DNA of 64,000 nucleotides from Candidatus Altimarinota bacterium (GTDB lineage Bacteria; Patescibacteriota; Gracilibacteria; BD1-5; UBA2023): positions 1 to 64,000 of the forward strand of contig JAQTON010000001.1 of NCBI GenBank assembly GCA_028713325.1, in the 5' to 3' direction. The stretch's first letter is position 1; every line of letters begins with the position of its first letter. Below are positions 7,085 to 60,053 of the stretch, piece after piece. Position numbers and translations under genes: made by a program. Under the pieces are notes generated by a model. The model saw only the letters and a list, made by a program, of their open reading frames with translations, ran no database searches and had not been told where the DNA came from.

Positions 7085-8203
7085 ATGAATATCTTCATTT
7101 TCCGTATCGGGTTTTTCTCGTTACTTTCAATCCTCTATTTTTTCTCATCCGTCTCGGCTTTGAGTGTTTCTTTACAGGATGCAAAGACCTATCACCCAAA
7201 CCAAGGAGAACAGACGATAACCCCGCTTACGATTACTTTTGATCGCGATAATGAAACATCGAGTGGTTCGTATCTGACTTTGAGCTTGCCAACTGAAGCG
7301 AATATCCGCTTCAGTTCAAAAAATATCCATTCGGTTACTATCTCGGGAACAGGTTCTGACAAAATCGCTGCGAGTGGAAGTGTTCTTCCGGATCTTCTTC
7401 ATATCCGCTTCCCCCTCACCTCAGTACTCATGAAATGAGATTCTCTCGTTTTTACTGGAATTCAAGTGATTATCTACTACAAACAGGATTCGTTTCGTTC
7501 TATCGGTGTGGACATAAATGGTGATGGAATGATTGAAAGCGAATCTGTAAATGGTCTCAGGGTAGATGATCTGTATGTGTACCAGGACACTCTTTCTCCA
7601 GCTGAAATGATGAACTTTACTTGAGTGATAAAAGATAATATCCTGACGATGAGCGGAAGTCTTCCATGAGACGTAGATCTACAGGCAGTGGAAGTGAATT
7701 ATCTTGACGGAAGTGGATTGAGCGTAAGGACGGACTTTATCCAAGGAAGTATTGTAGGGCATACACATCTGATTCCTAATGGGACAAATTCTATTCGAGT
7801 GAGAACGGTTGATTATCGTGCGAACTATTCCTCAGGTATAGCCTATCCAATAAGTTTGTTTGCGGAGGGGACTCTTCCTGCCATATCAACTTCGTCTTGA
7901 TCTACGAGTTCTGGTACTACCACTGTTACTAGTTCTGGAATGACTGAGTCAATGATTATTACAAAGACCGGAAAAATATTGTTCTTATTTAAAAGCTCTC
8001 GTTTCTCTGCCTTTGCTCTTCGTCTTGATGTTCTTACAGATAGGAAAGTTATAAAACTTGGAGAAAGTGTCCGTGAAAGAGTAATGATTATTCGAAATGG
8101 AATTATCCAAGTTCTTTTGGATTATGAGGTTGGAGCGGTAGGGAAAAGTGAAGCGATTACGAAGCTGAGTCGGTTGATTGGAGAGTTTAATGGAATTAAA
8201 TAG
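7085..8203 (+). CDS. Secreted protein of unknown function with a DxNxDG motif
   Basis: A 372-residue product assembled by reading several TGA codons as Gly. The N-terminus is a signal peptide (start at 7085, hydrophobic to about residue 25, SVSALS cleavage region). The middle is beta-rich; a calcium-binding-like DINGDG lies near residue 145. A Ser/Thr/Gly linker near 275-290 leads to a basic, helical C-terminal domain of about 85 residues. An upstream in-frame ATG at 7010 is less likely because 7085 gives a clean signal peptide. It follows the SLH gene and may be another envelope or adhesion component. I do not recognise the family. Confidence 0.75.
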
Positions 8204-8217
8204 AAGTTTCCTTATTC

Positions 8218-8277
8218 CGTAAGGTATAAAGTTCAAAAAATCCCCCGAAGTCCGAAAGGACGACGGGGGATTTTTTG
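8218..8277 (+). terminator. TA-array repeat R1: terminator repeat at the left boundary
   Basis: Rho-independent terminator with stem CCCCCGaaGTCC-gaaa-GGACgaCGGGGG and a T-tract. It is the first of seven near-identical copies between 8218 and 11660. About 20 extra bases on its left (cgtaaggtataaagttc) recur only at copy R7, the other end of the array. Confidence 0.88.
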
Positions 8278-8299
8278 TGTTTGCTTTTTGGTGAGAAAT

Positions 8300-8375
8300 G
8301 AGACCGGTCTCAATCTTCTTGGACTCTCAGAGAGAGATTTGAGGACAGAGGTTTCTTCATGAGGAGACCGATCTC
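8300..8375 (+). promoter_or_regulatory. Putative paired operators of TA module 1
   Basis: Two near-identical palindromes, GAGACCGGTCTC at 8300-8311 and GAGACCGATCTC at 8364-8375, lie 64 bp apart just upstream of the module 1 promoter. A related palindrome, GAAACCGGTTTC, lies upstream of module 5, whose antitoxin is homologous. This suggests binding sites for autoregulation. Confidence 0.55.
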
Positions 8376-8397
8376 TTTTGAGGAGAGAGAAAAACTT

Positions 8398-8425
8398 TTT
8401 GTGTTTCCAGTGGTTTGGGTATAAT
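8398..8425 (+). promoter_or_regulatory. Promoter of TA module 1
   Basis: TATAAT at 8420-8425 with a weak TTTGTG -35 region about 16 bp upstream. The block from the -35 region to the downstream TTTATAAATAACTT recurs almost unchanged before modules 4 and 5. Confidence 0.6.
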
Positions 8426-8455
8426 GAAGAGGATTTATAAATAACTTTTGAAATT

Positions 8456-8644
8456 ATGGCACAGATTCTTGATAAAACACGTAGTATAGTACTGGTAAAA
8501 TTTAGCACCAGTGAATTTAAAAGACTTCATTCATTTATAGACGATGATAAAAAAGAACAATTACTCAGACTCGCAGAGGATACAGAAGTAAATGGGGTGG
8601 AATTTAGAAGTTCAAAAGAGATGTTTGAATATCTTAATAAATAA
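8456..8644 (+). CDS. Antitoxin of TA module 1 (MAQILD family)
   Basis: A 62-residue acidic protein starting MAQILD and containing VLVKFSTSEFK, with an acidic, toxin-wrapping C-terminal half. It ends 3 bp before a YafQ-type toxin, the usual antitoxin-first order. It is homologous to the module 5 antitoxin at 11172, which shares MAQILD and LVKFS. The family is not one I can name. Function is inferred from size, charge and neighbour. Confidence 0.72.
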   Translation: MAQILDKTRSIVLVKFSTSEFKRLHSFIDDDKKEQLLRLAEDTEVNGVEFRSSKEMFEYLNK

Positions 8645-8647
8645 AAT

Positions 8648-8926
8648 ATGTCTCTCTACACACTAAAGCTCTCCTCCCGATTTAAGAGTGATTATAAGAA
8701 ACTTAAAAACAATAAACGTTTCATTCAAGAGTTTGAGAGAGTAATAGGCTTACTTGAGAATTGAGAAAGACTCGAAAAGAAATATCGCGATCATAATTTA
8801 GAAGGGAAATTATCCAATCTCAGAGAGTGCCATGTATTTCCTGATATTCTTCTTGTATATAAGTTATTAGATAAAGAGTTAATCTTGCAGTTATTGCGAG
8901 TTGGTTCTCATAGTGAAATATTTTAA
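8648..8926 (+). CDS. YafQ/RelE-type mRNA interferase toxin (module 1)
   Basis: A 92-residue RelE-superfamily toxin, expected to cut mRNA on the ribosome. The signature is the C-terminal half: LEGKLSNLRECHVFPDILLVYK followed by LLRVGSHSEIF, matching YafQ (RECHxxPDxLLxY and a final HSxxF). One internal TGA (after LLEN) must be read as Gly, so the standard code sees a broken gene. It starts 3 bp after the antitoxin stop and is followed by terminator repeat R2. Confidence 0.88.
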
Positions 8927-8930
8927 CTCT

Positions 8931-8988
8931 CCCCGAAGGGGCAAAAAATCCCCCGAAGTCCTGAAAGGACGACGGGGGATTTTTTGTG
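8931..8988 (+). terminator. TA-array repeat R2 (terminator)
   Basis: A small hairpin CCCCGAAGGGG at 8931-8941 precedes the shared CCCCCG/CGGGGG terminator (8946-8986). The following 30 bp (gtcgagagaggaggtcgataaaaatc) are repeated after R5. Confidence 0.87.
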
Positions 8989-9037
8989 TCGAGAGAGGAG
9001 GTCGATAAAAATCTTTTTGATTTTCTGAAATTTTGTA

Positions 9038-9128
9038 TATAATACTCATGTTCTTCCACTTGAACCGTTGGAAGTACGGGGTTAAAGAAATAATGTCGAA
9101 AAAAGAGGCTCTGATCAGCCTCTTTTTT
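9038..9128 (+). ncRNA. Possible small RNA with its own promoter and terminator
   Basis: TATAAT at 9038-9043 would start a transcript near 9050. It folds into a CTTCCA/TGGAAG hairpin (about 9052-9073) and ends in a terminator AGAGGCT-ctgatc-AGCCTCT with a T-run at 9099-9128. A leaderless 33-codon frame starting at 9048 overlaps it but runs through the terminator, so an RNA is the simpler reading. Confidence 0.42.
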
Positions 9129-9316
9129 CTTTTGACTAAAACCCGATAATGAGCTCTAGTTTCACTATCCAGATGGATAGAGTGAACCGTACTTTCATAA
9201 TGAAAGGGGGTTAAGGAGTAAAGTACCCCTTCCTCTTCCGAGAAAGAGGCGCAAGCAGTATATGGAAAAGAATATAATCGCCAAATCTTTTGCCGAACAG
9301 GATAGTACTCAAAATA
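9129..9316 (+). other. Non-coding part of the R2-R3 cassette
   Basis: No credible gene is seen here. The sequence holds a strong hairpin TTCACTATCC/GGATAGAGTGAA near 9158-9186, a GTACTTTC/GAAAG hairpin, and a GGGG...CCCC pairing around AGTAAAGTA. This is the only interval between array repeats that lacks a toxin-antitoxin pair. Confidence 0.4.
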
Positions 9317-9359
9317 GAACCCCCGAAGTCCGAAAGGACGACGGGGGATTTTTTGTGTT
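9317..9359 (+). terminator. TA-array repeat R3 (terminator)
   Basis: Same CCCCCGaaGTCC-gaaa-GGACgaCGGGGG stem with TTTTTT as the other copies, here without the small CCCCGAAGGGG hairpin on its left. Confidence 0.86.
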
Positions 9360-9361
9360 TG

Positions 9362-9385
9362 CTTTTTGGTGGGTTTGGATATAAT
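9362..9385 (+). promoter_or_regulatory. Promoter of TA module 2
   Basis: TATAAT at 9380-9385 in the repeated context GGTTTGGATATAATGAA, directly after repeat R3. Confidence 0.55.
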
Positions 9386-9416
9386 GAAGATATAAATTAT
9401 TTTTCACTATCAAATT

Positions 9417-9587
9417 ATGTTATCAACCGAAGCAAGAGAAGATCTCAAAACGGATTGTTCTTTTGAGGAGATTCAGAGAATCTCTCAGAGTTTAAAGAAG
9501 ATCAAGTCTTGAAAAGTTCTATCCAAAAAGCAAGTGGATGATTTTATAGAGACAAAACTATTTTCTCAATATACGGCTCATGTATAA
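9417..9587 (+). CDS. Antitoxin of TA module 2
   Basis: A 56-residue protein with one TGA (Gly in KKIKSGKV). It is helical and charged, and its stop codon overlaps the ParE-like toxin start by 8 nt, so translation is coupled. The family is not recognised; the antitoxin role follows from position and size. Confidence 0.68.
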
Positions 9588-9855
9588 GATTATCTACTCA
9601 GAAGATACTCTTCTGGATCTGCAAGAAATTGCTGATTATATCTCTTCGGATAATCCTTTTTATGCTAAAAAAGTTATCACGAAAATTTATAAGAGTATAG
9701 AATTTTTGGAGACATATCCTTTTATCTGAAAACCAAGAAAAGATGAACTGAGAGAATTGGTGGAACCCCAATACAAGTTTCGGATATTTTATAAGGTAGA
9801 AAATAAAAGCGTCTATATTATCTCGATATTCAAATACAAAAATGATTGGAAGTAG
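9580..9855 (+). CDS. ParE-type toxin (module 2)
   Basis: A 91-residue RelE/ParE-superfamily protein. The pattern LQEIADYISSDNPFYAKKVITKIYKSIEFLETYPFIG is typical ParE: two N-terminal helices, then a Pro-Gly turn. It is followed by ELVEPQYKFRIFYKVE and a C-terminal strand. The Gly of the PxxG turn is a TGA codon. ParE homologues usually poison DNA gyrase, but that target is inferred only from the family. Its ATG overlaps the antitoxin stop, and repeat R4 follows. Confidence 0.85.
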
Positions 9856-9858
9856 AGT

Positions 9859-9919
9859 CCCCGAAGGGGCAAAAACTCCCCCGTCAAGTCCTGAAAGGAC
9901 GACGGGGGATTTTTTGTTT
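9859..9919 (+). terminator. TA-array repeat R4 (terminator)
   Basis: Small hairpin CCCCGAAGGGG at 9859-9869, then the shared terminator stem with TCAAGTCC-tgaa-AGGAC at its tip and a T-run to 9917. Confidence 0.87.
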
Positions 9920-9921
9920 TG

Positions 9922-9945
9922 TTTTTTGGGAGGTTTGGATATAAT
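9922..9945 (+). promoter_or_regulatory. Promoter of the hicBA module
   Basis: TATAAT at 9940-9945 in the repeated context GGTTTGGATATAATGAA, directly after repeat R4. Confidence 0.55.
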
Positions 9946-9974
9946 GAATATGTTTAATTGATAATATCAAATAT

Positions 9975-10196
9975 ATGGTTACGCTCGGTGGGCTTAATAT
10001 TCAAGTATACCAGGAAGAAGATAATAGTTACTATGCTTCTGTTGAAAATCTTCCAGGATGTTTTACTATGGCAGAAACTCTTGAGGAACTTGATGGAAAT
10101 ATACGAGAAGCTATAACATCATATCTGCTGAGTGTTCAAAAAGATTTGCCAAAGTATCAGTTTCATATTACTTCTAAAGATATAATTCATGCCTAA
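9975..10196 (+). CDS. hicB: HicB-family antitoxin (module 3)
   Basis: A 73-residue protein with the HicB partial RNase H fold. VYQEEDNSYYASVENLPGCFTMAETLEELDGNIREAI matches the canonical DGGYxAxxPxLPGCxTxGxTxEEAxxNxxEAI pattern. It is a short HicB with no separate C-terminal DNA-binding domain. It comes before hicA, the reverse of the commonest hicAB order, with a stop/start overlap. It should neutralise the HicA at 10189. Confidence 0.9.
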   Translation: MVTLGGLNIQVYQEEDNSYYASVENLPGCFTMAETLEELDGNIREAITSYLLSVQKDLPKYQFHITSKDIIHA

Positions 10197-10404
10197 ATTT
10201 TCTCAAGTATATGGCATGGATCTTATAAAGATTCTGGAAAAACATTGATTCATTCAACACTCCCGTTCTGGAAGTCACTATACTCTCAAACATAATTTTA
10301 ACGGTAAACGTACCACAATACCAGTTCATAATAAGCCACTTGGAAAGTGATTATTGACTGCTATTCTTCGACAAGTATGATTATCGAAAGATATTTTAGA
10401 ATAG
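10189..10404 (+). CDS. hicA: HicA-family mRNA interferase toxin (module 3)
   Basis: A 71-residue double-stranded-RNA-binding-fold toxin. GFIQHSRSGSHYTLKH contains the catalytic His of the HicA GSHxxx motif, and TTIPVHNKPLGKGLLTAILRQVGLS matches the HicA C-terminus. Three of its glycines, including those in HGF, GKGLL and QVGLS, are TGA codons, so no standard-code ORF covers it. It overlaps hicB by 8 nt. Confidence 0.92.
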
Positions 10405-10410
10405 AATGTA

Positions 10411-10472
10411 CCCCGAAGGGGCAAAAAACTCCCCCGTCAAGTCCTGAAAGGACGACGGGGGAGTTTTTGTGT
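10411..10472 (+). terminator. TA-array repeat R5 (terminator)
   Basis: CCCCGAAGGGG hairpin at 10411-10421 plus the shared terminator at 10428-10467. The sequence after it (gtcgagagaggaggtcgat) duplicates that after R2. Confidence 0.87.
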
Positions 10473-10497
10473 CGAGAGAGGAGGTCGATAAAAATCT

Positions 10498-10526
10498 TTT
10501 TGTCTTTCCAATGGTTTGGATATAAT
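10498..10526 (+). promoter_or_regulatory. Promoter of TA module 4
   Basis: TATAAT at 10521-10526 with TTTTTGTC about 17 bp upstream. The block is nearly identical to those at 8398 and 11108. Confidence 0.6.
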
Positions 10527-10556
10527 GAAGGGGATTTATAAATAACTTTAGAGATT

Positions 10557-10685
10557 ATGAATAATAATATAGAAGCATGAAAGCTTTCAAAACAATTGGA
10601 CGATCTCATTATTGAACAATCACAGATTTTACGAAAGTCTTTGCGATCAAAAAAATCATCTTTTATTCTTGCCGATCATGTTTAA
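10557..10685 (+). CDS. Small antitoxin of TA module 4
   Basis: A 42-residue protein with one TGA (Gly in EAGKL) that reads as an amphipathic helix. Its last 8 nt overlap the toxin start at 10678. Too short for family assignment; the role is inferred from the arrangement. Confidence 0.6.
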
Positions 10686-11001
10686 GGTATACTTTTCTCG
10701 AGAAAGTTCTGCCCGGTTAGCACGTTATATTATTCAGTATAGGGAATATTATGAAAATCTCTATAGGGATAGCGGTATCTGGTCTGAAGATCAGATTATT
10801 GATGGTTATATTGCGGAGTCAAAACAGAGAAAAAATGAAATTATCACACTTATAACAACTCGATTATCACAAGAAGTGGTACTTGGGAAAACATTATTAA
10901 ATACCATTATCTTACCTTGGCGATCAAAATATATTTTTTTGGAGTGGGTAGAAGATTGTGATTCAAAAGAACGACGTATTATCAAATTTGATATCCGATA
11001 A
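10678..11001 (+). CDS. Putative RelE/ParE-like toxin (module 4)
   Basis: A 107-residue protein. Its C-terminal half (YIFLEWVEDCDSKERRIIKF) resembles ParE-like toxins, where a strand-forming IFxEW segment precedes a final Arg/Ile-rich strand. The N-terminal half is helical with an acidic GIWSEDQIIDGYI segment. It contains no TGA. Start at 10678 chosen because it overlaps the antitoxin stop as in modules 2 and 3. Family assignment is tentative. Confidence 0.65.
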   Translation: MFKVYFSRESSARLARYIIQYREYYENLYRDSGIWSEDQIIDGYIAESKQRKNEIITLITTRLSQEVVLGKTLLNTIILPWRSKYIFLEWVEDCDSKERRIIKFDIR

Positions 11002-11008
11002 ATTTTCT

Positions 11009-11057
11009 CCCCGAAGGGGCAAAAACTCCCCCGTCCGAAAGGACGGGGGAGTTTTTG
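11009..11057 (+). terminator. TA-array repeat R6 (terminator)
   Basis: CCCCGAAGGGG hairpin, then a tidier form of the shared stem, ACTCCCCCGTCC-gaaa-GGACGGGGGAGT, with a T-run. Confidence 0.88.
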
Positions 11058-11072
11058 CGTTTCTCGTCCACT

Positions 11073-11084
11073 GAAACCGGTTTC
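11073..11084 (+). promoter_or_regulatory. Putative operator of TA module 5
   Basis: The perfect palindrome GAAACCGGTTTC lies 47 bp upstream of the TATAAT of module 5. It is the counterpart of the GAGACCGGTCTC pair before module 1. Confidence 0.5.
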
Positions 11085-11107
11085 AAAATTGAGGTGAATG
11101 AAAATCT

Positions 11108-11136
11108 TTTTGTCTTTCCAATGGTTTGAATATAAT
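11108..11136 (+). promoter_or_regulatory. Promoter of TA module 5
   Basis: TATAAT at 11131-11136 in the repeated TTTTTGTCTTTCCAATGG context. Confidence 0.6.
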
Positions 11137-11171
11137 GAAGGGGATTATTTATAAATAACTTATGAGAGATT

Positions 11172-11339
11172 ATGGCACAGATTCTCGATCGAGATACGAA
11201 AAATGTTCTCGTAAAATTTAGTATACAGGAATTTAATTCTATTAAAAAAGTATATCCTATCGATGATGAGGATATGTCTCAGTATGAATTTATCCTGAAT
11301 ACCCCAGTGTCTGCAAAAGAACTTCTTAAAACTTTTTAA
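11172..11339 (+). CDS. Antitoxin of TA module 5 (MAQILD family)
   Basis: A 55-residue protein starting MAQILD with LVKFSIQEF, clearly related to the module 1 antitoxin. The C-terminal half is acidic and differs from its paralogue, as expected if it binds a different toxin. It ends 1 bp before the RelE-like toxin. Confidence 0.72.
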   Translation: MAQILDRDTKNVLVKFSIQEFNSIKKVYPIDDEDMSQYEFILNTPVSAKELLKTF

Positions 11340-11340
11340 T

Positions 11341-11577
11341 ATGGTTCAGTCATGGGAGAAGTATATCGAAAAGAATCCTAAAAAGGATGAATTAAAAAAG
11401 GTTATCTTTGATATTTCGGTGTGAGATATTGCAAGATACGATATCAAAAAACTTTCATGATATAGAAATAAATTTCGTCTTCGAGTTTGAAAAATACGAA
11501 TAATTTTTTCTAAAATAGGAGATGAGTACTTCATAGAGGCGGTTGACACGAGGTGAGATATTTATAAAGGATTATAA
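11341..11577 (+). CDS. RelE-type toxin (module 5)
   Basis: A 78-residue RelE-family mRNA interferase. The core KKLSGYRNKFRLRVGKIRIIF followed by TRGDIYK is the standard RelE pattern (LxGxxxxxRxRVGxYRxxY, then RxxIYR). Four glycines, including both in the LSG and RVG core positions, are TGA codons, so the standard code shows only short pieces. Repeat R7 follows. Confidence 0.9.
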
Positions 11578-11598
11578 TAAGTAAAGGTTTCTTTCTTT

Positions 11599-11660
11599 CG
11601 TAAGGTATAAAGTTCAAAAAATCCCCAGAAGTCCGAAAGGACGACGGGGGAGTTTTTGCG
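11599..11660 (+). terminator. TA-array repeat R7: right boundary
   Basis: Last copy of the shared terminator. Its left 28 bp (cgtaaggtataaagttc and on) match R1, so R1 and R7 bracket the array. It lies at the 3' end of the convergent murB gene and could stop transcripts from both sides. Confidence 0.85.
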
Positions 11661-11665
11661 TTTGT

Positions 11666-12532
11666 TTATTTATTCTCTATGATTCTCACTTCTTCTTGCA
11701 GCTCCACCCCAAACATCTCCCGTACTTTCTCTTTCGCGAGATCCCGTAGAGCGAGGATGTCCCGGTAGCTTCCCTGCTCGTCGTTCACGAAGAAGTTGGC
11801 ATGAATCTCCGATATCTTTACTCCGCCGATGCGGTGTCCCTTGAGTCCGACCTGATCGATGAGCCGTCCGGCGGAATCGAGAGGAGGATTCCGAAAAAAC
11901 GATCCGCAGGTGAATCCTCCGGGTTGTTTCCCGGAGCGGAAAGTTCTCGGATCGGTAGTGTCGTCGGAAACAAGGTCGGTTTGAAAAACCGCATCGACGA
12001 GGAACCAGGTAGGTCTCTCTTTGAGAAGAGAGTGACGGTAAGAGAAATCCAATTCGGTGTTTTTTAGGGTTATATATTCATTGATTTCCATATCAAAAAG
12101 CGTCGCTTCCAGAACGGCATCTTTTGCTTCGAATCCGAAACATCCGGCATTTCCGGCGATTGCTCCGCCGACCGTCCCAGGAAGCCCGACCCACTTTCCG
12201 AACAAAGAACCTTCCTGTTTTTTTGATATATGGAGCGAAAGCAAAGACAGAAGTTCTCCCCCCGTCACTCGTATAGTATTCCCGCTCCATTCTATTCACT
12301 TGAGCATGTTTCGCACGATAATTCCCTCGAATATCTCAAATGCAAACAGCACATTGGTTCCGCTTCCGAGAAAAACTATCGGGAGAGAATTTGTTTGTGC
12401 AAATTGCCAAATATCATACAGCCTTGCCATATCCGACCGTTCCCGAAGTTCGAAAAAATACCGTGCGATGGCAGGAGTATGAAAAGAAGAGTATTTAAAG
12501 AGATCTTTATTGTTTTCGAGAAATGGAGGCAT
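11666..12532 (-). CDS. murB: UDP-N-acetylenolpyruvoylglucosamine reductase MurB
   Basis: 288 residues. This flavoenzyme reduces UDP-GlcNAc-enolpyruvate to UDP-MurNAc with NADPH in the cytoplasm, an early peptidoglycan step. The FAD-binding part has FLGSGTNVLF and GLPGTVGGAIAGNAGCFG; the C-terminal domain has the catalytic Ser region GSFFRNP, GLKGHRIGGVKIS and HANFFVN, and the C-terminal Glu in ELQEEVRII. One TGA joins the two standard-code halves (NMLK-G-IEWS). It starts 6 bp after the uvrA stop, so the two share a transcript. Confidence 0.93.
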
Positions 12533-12538
12533 AGACGA

Positions 12539-15502
12539 TTAACGATGAGAAATATTTTTCTTCTCGCGATATTTTTTTAGAGCTTGTCCGGTATAGGAGC
12601 GTTTTTCTTTCAGTATATCTTCGGTCCTTCCTGAAAATATCAATTCTCCTCATCTGTCCCCTCCTTCCAATCCGATGTCGATGCAGTAATCGGAGTTGGC
12701 GATGATGTCGAGATTGTGCTCGATAACGAGGACGGTATTCCCTTTCTCCACGAGACGATCGAGGATGAGGAGAAGCTTCAGGACATCCGAGAAGTGGAGT
12801 CCGGTGGACGGTTCGTCGAGGATATAGATAGTTTTACTGGTCGAACGCTTGGAGAGGTCGAACGCCAGCTTGATTCGTTGAGCTTCTCCTCCCGAGAGAG
12901 TAGGGGCTGATTGCCCGAGTTCTATGTACCCGAGTCCGACATCGTTCAAAACTTCGAGTACGCGCTTGATGCGAGGAAAAGCCGTGAAAAATTCGAGCGC
13001 TTCCTCGACGGTCATCCGAAGGACTTCCGCAATGGTTTTTCCTTTGAATCGAACCTCCAGAGTTTCCGGATTATACCGACTTCCCCGACAGGATTCACAC
13101 TCTATATAGACATCGGGAAGGAAATGCATTTCGATTTTCTTGACTCCGCTTCCTTCACAGGTCTCGCAACGCCCGCCCTTGGTATTGAAGCTGAATCGCC
13201 CGATTCCATACCCCCGTTTCTGTGCTTCGAGTGATGCGGCGAATACTTCTCGAACATGACTGAACATCCCGGTATACGTGGCGATATTGGAGTGGGGAGT
13301 GCGACCGATGGGGGATTGATCGATGAGTATTACCTTGTCCAACTGTTTGGCTCAATCGATTTTTCGAACTTTCCCGACAGAAACAGTATTTCCGGTACTG
13401 AGCTCGTTGATGAGGTGCGGTGCGAGTATGTCCATAATGAGGGAAGACTTTCATGATCCGGAAACTCCGGTCACCACAGTGAGAACCCCGAGAGGGATTT
13501 TGACGCTTATATCCTTGAGATTGTTTTCCTCTGCCCCTTCGATGGTGATATATCATAGGGGCGTATGTCTTCTCTTTTCCAGAAGCACTTGTTTTTTCCC
13601 GGAGAGATAGAGTCCAGTTTCCGAGACGGGATTATTTATAATCTCCTCATACGTTCCTTGTGCCATAATCTCCCCCCCGTGCTTTCCGGCTCAGGGACCG
13701 ATGTCGAGGATATAGTCGGAAGCTTCCATGATATCTTCGTCATGTTCGACAACGATGACACTATTTCCCACGGCAACGAGCTTCTTGATATTCTCTATAA
13801 GCATTCCGTTGTCTCTCGGATGGAGTCCGATGGACGGTTCGTCGAGGATATAGGTGATTCCCTCAAGTTTCGTCCCGATTTGAGTGGCAAGCCGTATGCG
13901 TTGCGACTCTCCTCCGGAAATAGTTCCCGCTCTCCGAGAAATGGTCATATAGTTGAGTCCTACTCAGGAGAGAAACTCCAGACGCTCCGTGACGTTCTTC
14001 ATTATTCCTTTGGTGATGGTTTTTTCTCCTACAGAGAGCTTCAGTTCTCGGAAAAATTCGAGCGAATGAAGGATGGACATATTGGAAAGTTCTCAGATAT
14101 TCTTTTCTCCAACAAATACATGAAGGGAAGATTGTTTCAATCGGTGTCCATGACAGACTTCGCACTCCATCTCGGTTATGTACTGAGATATCCGTTTCAT
14201 AAAAGCATCGTTCGCCTCGGTTTCGTGATATCGGCGCGTGAGGTTACCTACTACTCCCTCATATCGCGTATGGTAGGCTTTTGCTTCCGTCCCTCCTTCA
14301 AAAGTATGAAATACCTCGAACGTCTCCGGACATCCGTGGAGGACTATCTCCCGTGCTTTTTTACCGAGAGTATTATAGGGTACATTCATGTCAATCTTGT
14401 ATTTTTTCGCCGCCGCCCGAAGAATTTCCATATAGTACACATGATTGGTCCATGGAAGGATAGCACCTTCTTCCAGAGTGAGTCTCCCATTGATAATCTT
14501 TTCCTCGAGAAAAACCACCTTCGTACCGAGTCCATGACAACTCTCGCATGCCCCGTAATGGGAATTGAATGAAAAATGAGAAAGCGAAAGGGTTTCCTGA
14601 GACGTTCCACACTGAGGACAGGAAGCTTTCGCACTAAAAGTAAAAGTCTCTGAAAAACTCGTCTTTTGGATTCAAAGCTCCGTTCCTCATTCTCCGTACA
14701 GTCGTACGGTTCACTTCGGTACTCCCTTTTCATCCAAATTATTTCGCTTTCGAGAAACTTTATCATCTCAGAAAACATATATTTCGAGCACGTCCTCCCC
14801 TATCTTATAGGCGAACTCGAGGGAATCTCGGAGACGTTTTCCGAACGATTCCTCCTCTTTTACCACGAGACGATCGATAACGACCGATATCTTCGAATTT
14901 TTCGGAATAGTTTCATTTTCGAGGGAATCGGCGACGGAGTAGACGGTATCGTTGATTTGGAATCGAACAAATCCGCTATCGAGCACATACCGTTTGATGG
15001 ATTCCATGGTAGAATCGGTCCCGAAAAACGGAATCGGTGCCATGATGTGAATTTTGGTTCCTTCCCCAAGGTGTTTCACAAAGGAGATAATTTCCGAAAC
15101 AGGATGTTTTTTAAGCGTAACCTCGGGATGATTCGGACATTTCTGGGTTCCGATGGTCGTAAAGAGGAGACGATAGAAGTCATATATTTCCGTAATGGTT
15201 CCGACGGTCGAGCGGGGATTATTGGAAACGGTTTTCTGATCGATGCTGATGGTCGGAGAAAGCCCGCGGATCTCATCCACTTTCGTGTCTTCGTTGATGG
15301 AAGAGATGATCATCCGAGCATACGTCGAGAGACTCTCCAGGTAACGTCGTTGTCCCTCGGCATAGATGGTATCGAACGCAAGCGAGGATTTTCCGGATCC
15401 CGAAACTCCCGTTACGACCACGAGTTTGTTTTTCGGAATCTTCACCGAGATATTTTTGAGATTGTGGGTTTTTGCTCCGATAACTTCGATGGAGTGGGAC
15501 AT
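12539..15502 (-). CDS. uvrA: Excinuclease ABC subunit A (UvrA)
   Basis: 987 residues joined from four main fragments by TGA=Gly. It is the damage-sensing ATPase of nucleotide excision repair, acting as a dimer with UvrB. Visible motifs: first Walker [15 protein letters not shown] near residue 34, a zinc site starting CPNHP, a second zinc module CPQCG...[11 protein letters not shown] signatures [11 protein letters not shown] and [11 protein letters not shown], the third zinc finger CETCEGSG...[10 protein letters not shown], and a GGDRGGELIFSG C-terminus. The protein is longer than the usual 940 or so residues. Around residues 248-287 it carries a peptide encoded by a palindromic repeat (14643-14761) inserted in frame between the strand ending EIYVF and the [11 protein letters not shown] zinc motif. 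It forms an operon with murB. Confidence 0.95.
14643..14761 (-). repeat. Palindromic element, copy A, in frame inside uvrA
   Basis: A 119-bp element bounded by imperfect 9-bp inverted repeats (aaagtttct/agagacttt), with a central CCGTAC-gact-GTACGG hairpin. It is clearly homologous to copies B-F. In the uvrA frame it encodes a peptide with KRxNLxEKGxPKGTVR and ELGxQKTSFSE, with TGA as Gly at three positions. Confidence 0.88.
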
Positions 15503-21985: not shown

Positions 21986-22351
21986 ATGGTTCGAATAGCC
22001 GGAGTTAATCTCCCGAACGGAAAGCATGCTGATATCGCTCTTATGTACCTTTATGGAGTAGGACGACCTCTCGCGATTACTATTCTTGATACTCTCGGTA
22101 TTGAGAAAACTACGAAGATCGACCTTCTTTCCGAAGGAGATCTTGATAGAATTCGAGATGAACTGAAGAAGTTTGTTATTGAAGGAGATCTTCGTCGAGA
22201 AGTATCAACGAATATCAAACGATTTCAGGAAATCAACTGTTACCGTGGTATGCGTCATAAGAAACGACTTCCCGTTCGAGGACAGAGAACGAAGACAAAT
22301 GCTCGTACTCGTAAAGGGAAGGCGGTTGCTATCGCCGGTAAGAAGAAATAA
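21986..22351 (+). CDS. rpsM: 30S ribosomal protein S13
   Basis: 121 residues. Head protein of the small subunit contacting the P-site tRNA. Begins [14 protein letters not shown], has [27 protein letters not shown] and a basic tail. No TGA codon. Its stop codon abuts copy B of the palindromic element, which separates it from rpsK. Confidence 0.96.
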
Positions 22352-22469
22352 GAATTCTGTAAAATACGAACTTTGAGCTTAAATCTCCGATTCCTCGTTC
22401 TCCGTACAGTTGTACGGTTCACTCCGGGTCTCGATTTGCACTCAAATTTCATTATTTTCCAAGAATTCT
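22351..22469 (-). repeat. Palindromic element, copy B, intergenic (rpsM-rpsK)
   Basis: A 119-bp element with flanking AGAATTCT inverted repeats and a central CCGTAC/GTACGG hairpin. It is homologous to the uvrA and glycosyltransferase copies and lies inside the ribosomal operon. Confidence 0.85.
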
Positions 22470-22510
22470 CTCCATTCAATTAAAAAAACTAATAACTAAT
22501 AACTCTATTT

Positions 22511-38713: not shown

Positions 38714-38755
38714 AAAAGTACATAGTACATAGTCTACTATGTACTATGTACTTTT
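38714..38755. terminator. 19-bp perfect palindrome, probable terminator
   Basis: AAAAGTACATAGTACATAG - tcta - CTATGTACTATGTACTTTT. It lies downstream of the restriction-modification gene and 10 bp before the glycosyltransferase start. Each arm also contains a direct GTACATAGTACATAG repeat. A-rich on one side and T-rich on the other, it could stop transcription both ways. Confidence 0.65.
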
Positions 38756-38765
38756 AAAACTCTCC

Positions 38766-40169
38766 ATGAACTTCATATTTTTCTGACGACTCGCGAAAGA
38801 GAAGGGGTTTGATTTGCTCGTCCGATCCCTTGAAAACATCATGCAAAAAACCGGAGAACTTCCTGGAAATTTCTTCCTGTTCGGGGAAGGAGATTTGCAA
38901 GAGATGTTGTTTCAAGCATTCGGGGAATCTCCTTTTTTTGAAGACTGTTCCTGACTTACTCCCGCAGAAATCGCTGATAAGATAGAGCTCCTCGAAACTT
39001 CGGAGGAGTGAGAAGAGTGCAAAATCTACTTTTTCGGATGGCAATCGCTCTCCACGATACGGGGCGTTTTGGAAGTGTCCCACTTTTCCCTGATGCCGTC
39101 GCGATTCCTCGAGACTTTCGGACTTTCGGCACTCGAGTCCCTCTCGGAAGGGGTTCCCGTGATGGGGTTTCGGAAAGGAGGACTCATTCCGTTTATATCG
39201 CAGGAACTTGCCGTTCCTTTTTCTGCAAGCGATGAGGAAAACATCGAAGCTTTCTCGAATACAATCGTGGAAATTTCGGAGAAGTATTCCTCTTTTTCTT
39301 CTCTCATGGGAGAAAAGGAATCCGATTGGGATGCTCTTTCGCATGAATCGCGACGAATCGCGGACAGCTACACTGAAGGGCGATGGATACGACAGGTTCG
39401 GGAAATGCTCCCATCGAACACGAAGAGGATTCTCCTCGCGAGCGATTATACGACTCTCCTCGGGGGGATAGAAACGCATGTACAAACCATTGCACGAACG
39501 CTTCGACAGCACGGGTATGAAGTGGAGATTTTCGGCTGGAACCTCCCGAAAGGACGGTTTTCGAAGGTGCTTCGTCTGGTGGGACTCGTATATTCTCTCT
39601 GTAATATCTCTTCTGTTTGGAGTATTCGCAGAAAGATTCGAGAATTCAAACCCGATGTTATCTGGCTCCATAGTGTGAGCCGATTTCTCGGACCACTGGT
39701 GGTTCGGGAGGTGGTGAATTGGGGGAAAGATAAAAAAAATTATGTGAAACATGAAATTTCTCAAAAGCGAAGTAATTTGAATGAAAAATGAGAACCGGAG
39801 TGAACTGTACGAGATAGTACAGTGAACGAGGAAACGGAATTTTGAAGTCAAAGAACGAGTTTTTCAGAAATTTCAACCCTGGTGACGTATCACGATCTTT
39901 GACTTTTCTCCCCCTTTCCTTCGGAAGTCGAGAGCGAAGCAATGATTTCGAAAAACCCGAGACTCGGAGCGTTTCTCTTCTCGGTACGCTCCAAGAATCC
40001 CATCATGTATCTCGCAACGTACTGTAAATATTTTCAAGTTTGTATTCTCAGGAAACTCCTGAAGAAAATCCATGTCCATATCGTCCCGTCGGCTTTTCTC
40101 GTTCCGCATATTCGCGATATAGAGGAAGTTCCGGAGGAACAAATCGTCGTACTCGAACATTTTCTCTAG
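38766..40169 (+). CDS. Glycosyltransferase (GT4 fold) with the two lobes in reversed order
   Basis: 467 residues in one frame, with several TGA=Gly. Residues 1-200 form a GT4 C-terminal lobe: FFGRLAKEKGFDLLVRSL at the very start, then PSRFLETFGLSALESLSEGVPV with the donor-binding E-x7-E. From about 225 a GT4 N-terminal lobe begins (KRILLASDYTTLLGGIETHVQTIARTL, PDVIWLHS, VTYHDLGLFSPFPS, IVPSAFL) and ends at VVLEHFL, where a normal enzyme would continue with FFGRLAKEKG. It is therefore either a circular permutation or a fusion of two truncated tandem genes. Residues 330-370 are encoded by palindromic element copy C. Activity is uncertain. Confidence 0.8.
39753..39874 (+). repeat. Palindromic element, copy C, in frame inside the glycosyltransferase gene
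   Basis: A 122-bp element with 9-bp perfect inverted ends (GAAATTTCT/AGAAATTTC) and a central CTGTAC-gagata-GTACAG hairpin. It encodes KRSNLNEKGEPEGTVR and TEFGSQRTSFSE in the same frame as the uvrA copy, with three TGA codons as Gly. It splits the glycosyltransferase between YVKHE and LVTYHDLG. Confidence 0.9.
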
Positions 40170-53206: not shown

Positions 53207-53236
53207 TCCCGCACTTTCATAAAAAGAAGCTTTTAT

Positions 53237-53358
53237 GAGATTCTCAAAAACGAAGTAATTTGAATAAAAAGTGAGTACCGGAGTGAGCTGTACGAAAGTA
53301 GTACAGTGAACGAGGAAACGGAACTTTGAGTTCAAAGAACAAGTTTTTCAGAAATCTC
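53237..53358 (+). repeat. Palindromic element, copy D, in the rpmH leader
   Basis: A 122-bp element flanked by GAGATTCTC/AGAAATCTC with a CTGTAC-gaaagta-GTACAG core. It is nearly identical to copy C over most of its length but is interrupted by a TAA in the coding frame. Confidence 0.87.
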
Positions 53359-53399
53359 AACTCTCTCTTTTTACTATTATTTCTAATAAATCAGCCACT

Positions 53400-53705: not shown

Positions 53706-53835
53706 GAGAATGATTGCAAAAACGAAGTAATTCGAGTGCAAATCGACGCCATAGTGCACCATTGTGGTGTCACCGGAGTTGAATTTGAGGAAACGGAGAT
53801 TTAAACTTGAAGAACGAGTTTTTCCAAAAATTCTT
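53706..53835 (+). repeat. Palindromic element, copy E, diverged
   Basis: About 130 bp between rpmH and rnpA. It has AAAACGAAGTAATT at the left, ACCGGAGTTGAATTTGAGGAA in the middle and AGAACGAGTTTTTCC at the right, as in the other copies. The rnpA ATG follows immediately. Confidence 0.7.
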
Positions 53836-57563: not shown

Positions 57564-57690
57564 TAACTTCAGGATTCATTAAGATACAAAAGAACGATAG
57601 AATTTGTGTGAAAAACGAGTACCGGAGTGAACCGTACGGCTATACGGAGAATGAGGAAACGGAATTTTGAACGCAAAGTCTGAAGTTATT
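57562..57690 (+). repeat. Palindromic element, copy F, between the methyltransferase and ftsK
   Basis: A 129-bp element bounded by AATAACTTCAG/CTGAAGTTATT. The core GTACCGGAGTGAACCGTACGG...GGAGAATGAGGAAACGG matches copies A-D. Its left end touches the stop codon of the methyltransferase gene. Confidence 0.83.
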
Positions 57691-57699
57691 CTGTGTCTC

Positions 57700-59922
57700 C
57701 TATAGCACTTCTCTCGGCTTGCTCCCGTCCGCGGGTCCGACGATTCCCATCCCTTCGAGGATATCGATCACTCGGGCAGCACGAGCGTACCCAAGTTTCA
57801 TGCGGCGTTGAAGCATGGATGTGGAGGCTTTTCATTCTGCTCGAACCGTATGAATAGCTTCCTCGATAATCTTCGGATCTTCATCATATTCACGACTTCC
57901 ATCGTTCATACTTCCCTCAAAATTTCCCCGATCCCCATCGACGATGGAGGCATCGTAGATATCCTCGAGCATAGCAGGGTCGATGGTTCGCTTGATATGA
58001 TTCACCACCGCCTCGACTTCCTCGGTACTCACATACACCCCCTGAATACGCTCCGGAGCACTGGAACCGACTGGAGAATAGAGCAGGTCTCCGTTTCCAA
58101 GGAGATCCTCCGCTCCCATATTATCGAGAACCGTTCGGCTGTCTATCTGCGAAGCGACCGTAAAGGCGATTCGACTCGGGATATTGGCCTTGATCAGCCC
58201 GGTGATGATATCGACCGACGGACGCTGAGTCGCAACGATCAAGTGCATACCGACCGCTCGAGCCATCTGAGCGATGCGGGCAATGGCATTCTCCACTTCT
58301 TTTTTGTTTCCGCTCATCATCAGATCCGCAAGCTCGTCGATAATGATGACGATATGAGGCATCTTATCTTTTTTCCCGATTTTTTCATTGTACTCTCCGA
58401 GATTCCGGGCTCGTGCCACTTGGAGGATGTCATACCGACGAAGCATCTCCGCTACCGACCACTTGAGAGCATTGAGTGCTTTTTCCGGATCGTTGATAAC
58501 GGGAGTGAGGAGGTGAGGGATTCCGTTATAGATACCGAGCTCGACTCGTTTCGGATCGACCATAATCATACGGAGCATATCGGGCGAATTTTTGTAGAGG
58601 AGAGAGAGGATAAATCCGTTCATCCCGACTGATTTTCCCGATCCGGTCTGTCCAGCGATGAGGAGATGGGGCATCTTTCCCATGTCGGCAACGACATATT
58701 CGCCGTTAATATCCTTCCCGACCGCCATCGCGAGATTCGATTTATGACCCGTAAAATTCGGATGTTCCAGAACCTCCCGAATCCCGACCATATCACGTTT
58801 ATCGTTCGGCACTTCGATACCGACGAGACCGACTCCGGGAATAGGAGCCTGAATACGGATGGACTTCGCTTTGAGTGCGAGCGAGAGATCTTTCTTCAGG
58901 TTCTCGATGCGATTGAGTTTCACTCCTTCGGCAGGCTTCAGACGGTATTGAACCACTGTCGGTCCCACTTTTTCCCCGATCATTGTCACATCGATCTTAA
59001 AATGGAGAAGGGTTTTTTGAATTTCCAAAGATTTCTGTTCGATTTCTTTTGCATCGATAACGTTTTCGTGAGAAACATTGTCGAGGAGTTTGGTACTCGG
59101 GAATTCCCACTTGCCGAAATCCGGTTTATTTGCTTCTTTCTTGGGAATATCCGCAACACTCAGTTGTTTTGCTCGGGAAATAGGTTCTCCCGAAGACTCA
59201 CTCGATGCACCGAAGAAACCACCGAGAATCCCCTTATTCTCCTTTTTTTCAATCTGAATATGTTTTGGAGATTCTTTTACTCCCTTCTCGGGCGTGGCTC
59301 GAGATTTCTTGAGGAGATTGATCTGGTCCTCGAGTTCCTTCGCTTTGTCTTTATAAAAGGCATCATTTTTATCCTCTTTCATCTCGTCTTTTATCGCTTT
59401 CCCTGTATCTTTCATCGTTTGTTTTACGCTATGAATCGACGGAATCGACGGGAGGGTCGAGTGAATGCTTCCAAATATTTTGCGATACGATATTCGGAGA
59501 GTGAGATAGAGAGAAACGAGAAATCCACCGACGAGGAAAACAAGGGCGGGTGCATATCCGAGAAACGACACGAAGAAACTTCCGAAGTCCAAAAGCCCCG
59601 CTTCATAGGGGTGAGTAAATATATTTTCAAGCGACACGACCGATATCCAGAACATGAGAAGTCCGATGAGTCGCACCATACTCCAGGAGAGCTTGTTGAT
59701 GACGATCAAAAATCCGAGGATAGTAACGATAGGGGCAAAAATGAATCGAAAGTCCGTACCAAAAACAATGATTCCTATTTTCGCGACAATATCCCCTACA
59801 GTAGAACCGGTATCTCCGGCAAGTACGAGAACTCCGAGAAAGAGGAGGAGCCATCCGACAATCGTGTTGCGGAGTTCGTAGCTCCAAGTCGGTCGGGATT
59901 TCTTTGTCTTTTTTTTGGACAT
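57700..59922 (-). CDS. ftsK: DNA translocase FtsK
   Basis: 740 residues. It pumps DNA during chromosome segregation and division. N-terminus: four transmembrane segments (about 20-150). A linker with coiled coil follows (about 170-300), then the motor with Walker A GQTGSGKS, Walker [11 protein letters not shown] and [31 protein letters not shown]. The gamma winged helix ([24 protein letters not shown]) is reached through one TGA (AE-G-KAS). The start at 59922 ([11 protein letters not shown]) is preferred; longer starts add an unneeded hydrophobic stretch. Confidence 0.95.
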
Positions 59923-60053
59923 GGGAGGAAAATAGTCTTTAGAGGGCATTGATAATGCTTTGATTATAGGGAAAAATAGGAAAAAGCAAGAAAAGGATTT
60001 GGCTAAATCCACTTTTTCATATAATCAAAACCAATATATCACTTTTCTTTTTT

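Follow-up and report, generated by a model that had tools for sequence, protein, structure and literature searches.

A glycosyltransferase gene lies at 38739..40169 on the forward strand of the window, the 64,000-nucleotide stretch of Candidatus Altimarinota bacterium DNA that was analysed. Translated with table 25, the gene contains GT1 and GT4 lobes by Pfam. In this open reading frame Pfam places the GT1 (C-terminal) lobe ahead of the GT4 N-terminal lobe, and the protein looks as if it were permuted or a fusion of two genes. Within it lies a hairpin element, copy C (39753..39874, forward strand), which is in frame (phase +2), encodes SQKRSNLNEKGEPEGTVRDSTVNEETEFGSQRTSFSE and is bounded by the arms GAAATTTCT (39753-39761) and AGAAATTTC (39866-39874). 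With TGA translated as glycine, the frame of the GT4 gene runs through the element without a stop, as ...YVKHEIS-QKRSNLNEKGEPEGTVRDSTVNEETEFGSQRTSFSE-ISTLVTYHDLG. The genetic code was identified as table 25 (UGA=Gly), as conserved genes were fully open only under this table. Copy C contains in-frame TGA codons, and the frame of the insert is open because UGA is read as glycine.

A second copy (14641..14763, reverse strand) lies in frame within uvrA (12539..15502, reverse strand; PDB 2r6f, E 7e-300), where it encodes a peptide with QKTSFSE and is positioned between residues 260 and 262 of the UvrA structure 2R6F. A preliminary description of this DNA had proposed that the same element interrupts both proteins in one frame, and our analysis confirmed this, both copies being in phase +2. 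The peptide TSFSE, which it had regarded as common to the inserts, is indeed shared by the GT4 and uvrA copies; in the copies within sufS, murG and the addA-like gene, the second half of the peptide reads NEFF or DEFF owing to insertions and deletions in the loop.

Four further copies were found in the window outside genes. One (22348..22472, reverse strand) lies between rpsM and rpsK, directly behind the rpsM stop codon (TAA, 22349-22351) and in reverse orientation, within the S13-S11-S4-rpoA operon; no element was found behind rpsM in three relatives (G003, G004 and G006). Another (57578..57702, forward strand) has its right end at the stop codon of ftsK (reverse strand, 57700-60042) and is in reverse orientation relative to this gene. 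The copy upstream of rpmH (L34) at 53234..53361 (forward strand) is the one most like copy C. It had been described as a leader copy closed by a TAA in the shared frame; the +2 frame is closed, and the codon that shuts it is a TAG (53299-53301). A diverged copy (53706..53835, forward strand; 77 bits) lies upstream of an rnpA-like open reading frame, a name given without Pfam confirmation. Near-identical terminator-like repeats (CCCCCGAAGTCCGAAAGGACGACGGGGG...TTTTTTG) are also clustered at 8197-11670 of the window, several of them followed by a similar promoter-like block.

Form, copy number and spread of the element

The full-length element is an imperfect palindrome of ~124 bp, represented by 60 copies in the window's own genome (G000; Gracilibacteria, 1.05 Mb, five contigs) at E < 1e-5 with a covariance model of 124 positions and 35 base pairs built from 29 copies. 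At 24 of the 35 pairs both sides were altered yet pairing was kept, and these compensatory changes show that the hairpin is conserved. BLAST with copy C gave 42 matches across this genome (E down to 1e-44 for other copies) and the fold of copy C scored z = -4.6 against shuffles; the element is therefore a repeat far beyond chance expectation. Conservation is strongest in the centre and the ends are variable: the outer 9 bp form terminal inverted repeats which are complementary in most copies, with letters that vary from copy to copy. Three subfamilies (A, B and C) were recognized. Among the inner pairs, 85 G-U were counted against 35 A-C, which suggests folding of the forward strand; this indication is weak because the subfamilies are related. 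Three elements (L014, L076 and L085) carry a nested extra insertion of 20-50 nt, often a GCTCCCC/GGGG-like hairpin, and rsmA is still in frame.

All six other genomes of the same genus were positive, with 10 to at least 60 copies each. Some genomes of the same family contain 1 to at least 60 copies, and few genomes in the order contain any. A scan of a public genome collection with one core pattern matched only Candidatus Gracilibacteria. An Rfam search of the window returned tRNA and 5S rRNA only, and the element matched no family.

Reading frame and host proteins of genic copies

A total of 166 copies from G000 and its relatives were analysed by applying a codon model to both flanks. The model was trained on six window genes with Pfam or homology support and gave the correct frame for 62 of 62 test pieces (taken from three genes, of which two had also served for training). 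A copy was counted as genic when one coding frame was found on both flanks and was open throughout; the openness of genic copies is thus no independent result because the set is partly defined by it, and the choice of frame and the absence of interrupted genes are independent of this definition.

Among 37 genic copies, 31 were in phase +2, three in phase +0 and three in phase -1, and none was found in +1, -0 or -2. The share expected for +2, from frame openness among non-genic copies, is 17%; the excess gives p ~1e-18 over copies and p ~4e-15 over independent host sites (~26 of 32, counted by hand). The frame differs by subfamily: forward copies of A (20 of 20) and B (11 of 11) were all in +2, and those of C (3 of 3) in +0. 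One copy within a dus gene was assigned to B but probably belongs to C, whose peptide it encodes. Three genic copies are in reverse orientation. The frame tally thus bears out the earlier proposal of selection on, or structural tolerance for, one frame, since equal use of all frames did not occur. The idea of a single frame is nevertheless incomplete, as subfamily C uses another one and most copies are non-genic and docked at stop codons.

The insert adds ~40-45 hydrophilic residues. In the two larger subfamilies the fraction of large hydrophobic residues is lowest in +2 (0.23 for A and 0.27 for B), compared with 0.37-0.47 in the reverse frames. Nearly all genic A and B copies start at a codon boundary, and +0 is also open, yet unused, in many genic copies. 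About 11 further copies lie in +2 a few codons past start codons. The other copies flanked on either side by forward genes are N-terminal or leader insertions, and none of them was found to interrupt a gene out of frame.

These observations bear on whether the inserts reach the protein at all. The hairpin might be removed or skipped, as an RNA intron-like or intein-like element or by translational bypass like that of byps, leaving a protein without the insert. The inserts are hairpins in conserved genes, as this reading would have it, and ribosomes are known to skip coding palindromes such as the byps of Magnusiomyces mitochondria (cited in PMC6649704). A skipped insert, however, needs no frame, whereas the embedded copies keep that of the host, none has the same gene on both sides out of frame, and the choice of frame is fixed for each subfamily. 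With no Rfam match either, we consider skipping very unlikely.

The 37 internal in-frame copies are carried by ~32 host sites in conserved enzymes. The hosts in G000 are sufS, GT4, pcrA, an addA-like helicase, uvrA, rlmE, rsmA, rimO and a femAB-like gene; the names sufS, pcrA, addA, rsmA, rimO and femAB come from reading translations, and uvrA, rlmE and GT4 are better supported. Hosts in the relatives, most identified by Pfam, include murG, murB, pheT, aspS, cysS, valS, gatB, recG, radA, an rlmD-like gene, a dus gene, a miaB-like gene and a copper-type ATPase. The copper-type ATPase carries two elements, one in each orientation, and the rlmD-like methyltransferase carries two forward copies (L195 in G003:C117 and L053 in G005:C85). 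The radA site is filled in two species in opposite orientations.

Comparison with same-genus orthologues revealed that the element is absent from uvrA in 6 of 6, rlmE in 5 of 6 and rimO in 4 of 6, from the GT4 site in 4 of 4 (G001, G004, G005 and G006) and from the sufS site in 6 of 6, one of which has an unrelated insert. Set against orthologues that lack the element, RlmE shows a clean insertion. As the element is missing from most same-genus orthologues at the tested sites, the genic copies are insertions. AlphaFold predictions of RlmE and RsmA (6-7 relatives) had a mean pLDDT of 43, too poor for placing the insert, and were set aside.

At sites occupied by the element in G000, some relatives contain an unrelated C-rich palindromic insert of the CCCTAACCCTCTCC...GGAGAGGG type, apparently in frame (L103 and L104 in pcrA, L094 in sufS, L136-L138 in the addA-like gene, L118 and L121 in rsmA). 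These C-rich inserts apparently represent another family of coding palindromes that uses the same loops. As several loops are shared by both kinds of insert, they resemble hot spots at which insertion does no harm. For annotation, this means that 40-residue inserts and an apparent second, C-rich palindrome family share loops in enzymes of DNA repair and RNA modification.

Differences between occupied orthologues fell on codon positions 1, 2 and 3 in the ratio 26:26:30 within the insert and 77:77:264 in the flanks (Fisher p ~1e-5 for the contrast). This codon-position test of occupied orthologous inserts gave no sign of selection on the peptide sequence. As the differences in the insert fall equally on the three positions, the result favours a frame that is tolerated and a peptide sequence that is not conserved; of the two possibilities raised earlier, it speaks for tolerance rather than selection on the peptide. 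The orthologous inserts of rimO (L126, L127 and G000:C1:363728-363856) and rsmA (L119 and L120) are 95-98% identical across species, with flanking third positions 35-44% different. A simple neutral-passenger reading does not explain this identity; possible explanations are gene conversion, strong constraint or recent arrival of the element at one and the same site.

Docking behind stop codons

Among 128 non-genic copies, 102 have a reverse-strand gene to their right. For 95 of them the offset between the stop codon of that gene and the end of the model is -5 to +3 nt. In the sense of the docked gene, the hairpin begins 0-8 nt past the stop (58 TAA and 37 TAG). If positions were uniform over a spacer of ~36 nt, this would have p ~2e-48, an exact value that depends on a spacer length taken from one example. 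Docked copies are reverse-oriented relative to the gene, and forward docking is rare (~5). Several gene ends carry the element in two or three species. For eight docked genes, most orthologues end at the same residue, mostly without a comparable hairpin, and the stop codon therefore predates the insertion; other palindromes were found at orthologous gene ends at L255 and L257. A YTA target motif at the right end was considered and rejected: 12 of the 34 genic copies in forward orientation lack one nearby, and the spacers contain further TAA/TAG triplets that are unused. Beyond the hairpin of non-genic copies, read in the direction of the upstream gene, there is often an AATCTC-like motif, which resembles the first arm of the element itself and is possibly a remnant of duplication.

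Such docking might mean that the element is chiefly a functional 3'-end hairpin, a terminator or mRNA stabiliser, with genic copies as stray by-products. The short distance from the stop, the single orientation and the gene ends occupied in more than one species are in keeping with this role. A terminator, however, has no need to sit 0-8 nt from a stop codon, and many orthologous gene ends are without the element. Termination is not the likely role because a strong terminator between rpsM and rpsK, inside an operon, would be harmful; together with the orthologous ends that mostly lack a comparable hairpin, this copy weakens a pure terminator role, and a mainly 3'-end function appears unlikely to us.

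The excess of one frame might instead be a product of the insertion mechanism, acting between codons only or coupled to translation, with no filter on the peptide. The start of genic A and B copies at codon boundaries, the precise docking of the same element at stop codons and the +0 frame left open but unused in most genic copies all point this way. The offsets from the stop, in contrast, show no three-base rhythm, subfamily C stands in another frame and three genic copies are reversed, so that we hold a purely mechanistic bias to be quite improbable.

The explanation that we regard as probable is a mobile element of Gracilibacteria, dispersed and non-autonomous, that forms a hairpin, works like the Rickettsia palindromic elements and occupies two niches. 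A copy landing in a gene would survive only with an open frame and where 40-45 extra residues can be tolerated; forward orientation and one frame per subfamily would then mostly be kept because only open, tolerable insertions survive. Under this proposal the insert would be translated and would form a surface loop of a working enzyme, selection would target the open frame and the nucleic-acid hairpin rather than the peptide sequence, and the filter would purge harmful frames and orientations. The second safe place would be directly behind a stop codon, in reverse orientation; a hairpin in reverse sense may interfere with transcription or translation except where the footprint of the terminating ribosome covers it. 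It is conceivable but doubtful that reading frames govern where the element inserts or is retained, through a mechanism that senses translation or the mRNA and places it at codon boundaries in one orientation and at stop codons in the opposite one.

If such a coupling to reading frames were true, one mobile element would combine a stop-codon safe harbour with a coding safe harbour, and we know of no described element with this combination. In-frame coding palindromes have so far been reported mainly from Rickettsia and Wolbachia. The present family would be an independent case from a CPR phylum, indicating that selfish DNA can repeatedly extend conserved proteins and that a frame can become available to it through an altered genetic code (UGA=Gly). 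The precise, oppositely oriented docking at stop codons makes it possible to ask, in testable form, how a small hairpin comes to occupy two harmless places.

Comparison with known systems

The attC sites of integrons lie directly behind stop codons in fixed orientation, measure ~124 bp in Vibrio cholerae and fold as single strands. The Gracilibacteria element resembles these repeats in all four respects, at ~124 nt, and, as in most bacteria, there is a tyrosine recombinase belonging to the wider family. In contrast to integron cassette ends, its copies are dispersed without cassette arrays, many lie inside genes, and its central conservation and variable ends are the reverse of the attC pattern. 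A search for an integron integrase gave no match above the cut-off in 27 genomes. That the copies are dispersed attC-like recombination sites is, accordingly, exceedingly improbable.

The element resembles REP/RAYT systems as a set of dispersed palindromes that are mostly at gene ends. REPs are 20-40 bp and extragenic (PMC3733652); the Gracilibacteria element, unlike these, is longer and also genic. A Y1 transposase (PF01797) was considered as mobiliser and rejected, as none was found in G000, nor in G002, G004-G006 and G013.

Bacterial MITEs with open reading frames include ERIC, the 107-bp Correia/NEMIS, YPAL and the QMITE of Coxiella, which are 100-200 bp long and form some in-frame fusions (PMC2229807). 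The present element is likewise non-autonomous and hairpin-forming, with terminal inverted repeats and some in-frame fusions. Unlike in MITEs, its terminal 9 bp vary yet stay complementary, many in-frame insertions lie in conserved enzymes, and neither a clear target-site duplication nor a cognate transposase (PF01797 in G000) was found. The sequence GAAATTTC occurs at both ends of the GT4 copy and once in the empty site of G001; this octamer is self-complementary, and with relatives too diverged for a clear comparison it is no more than a candidate duplication.

The closest likeness in form and placement is to the Rickettsia palindromic elements (RPEs) and their Wolbachia equivalents. RPEs are imperfect palindromes of 105-150 bp with terminal inverted repeats, lying between genes or in frame in unrelated conserved proteins, and their target-site duplication is unresolved (PMC2229807, PMC10969869); a guanylate kinase bearing an RPE is translated and active (PMC2229807). 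The Gracilibacteria element shares with them its size, its palindromic form, its dispersal and its in-frame presence in conserved proteins. In the open-access literature searched, no report was found of stop-codon docking of RPEs or of coding palindromes in Gracilibacteria. Unlike RPEs, the present element belongs to another phylum, its frame depends on UGA being read as glycine, and most of its non-genic copies are docked at a stop codon with reversed orientation.
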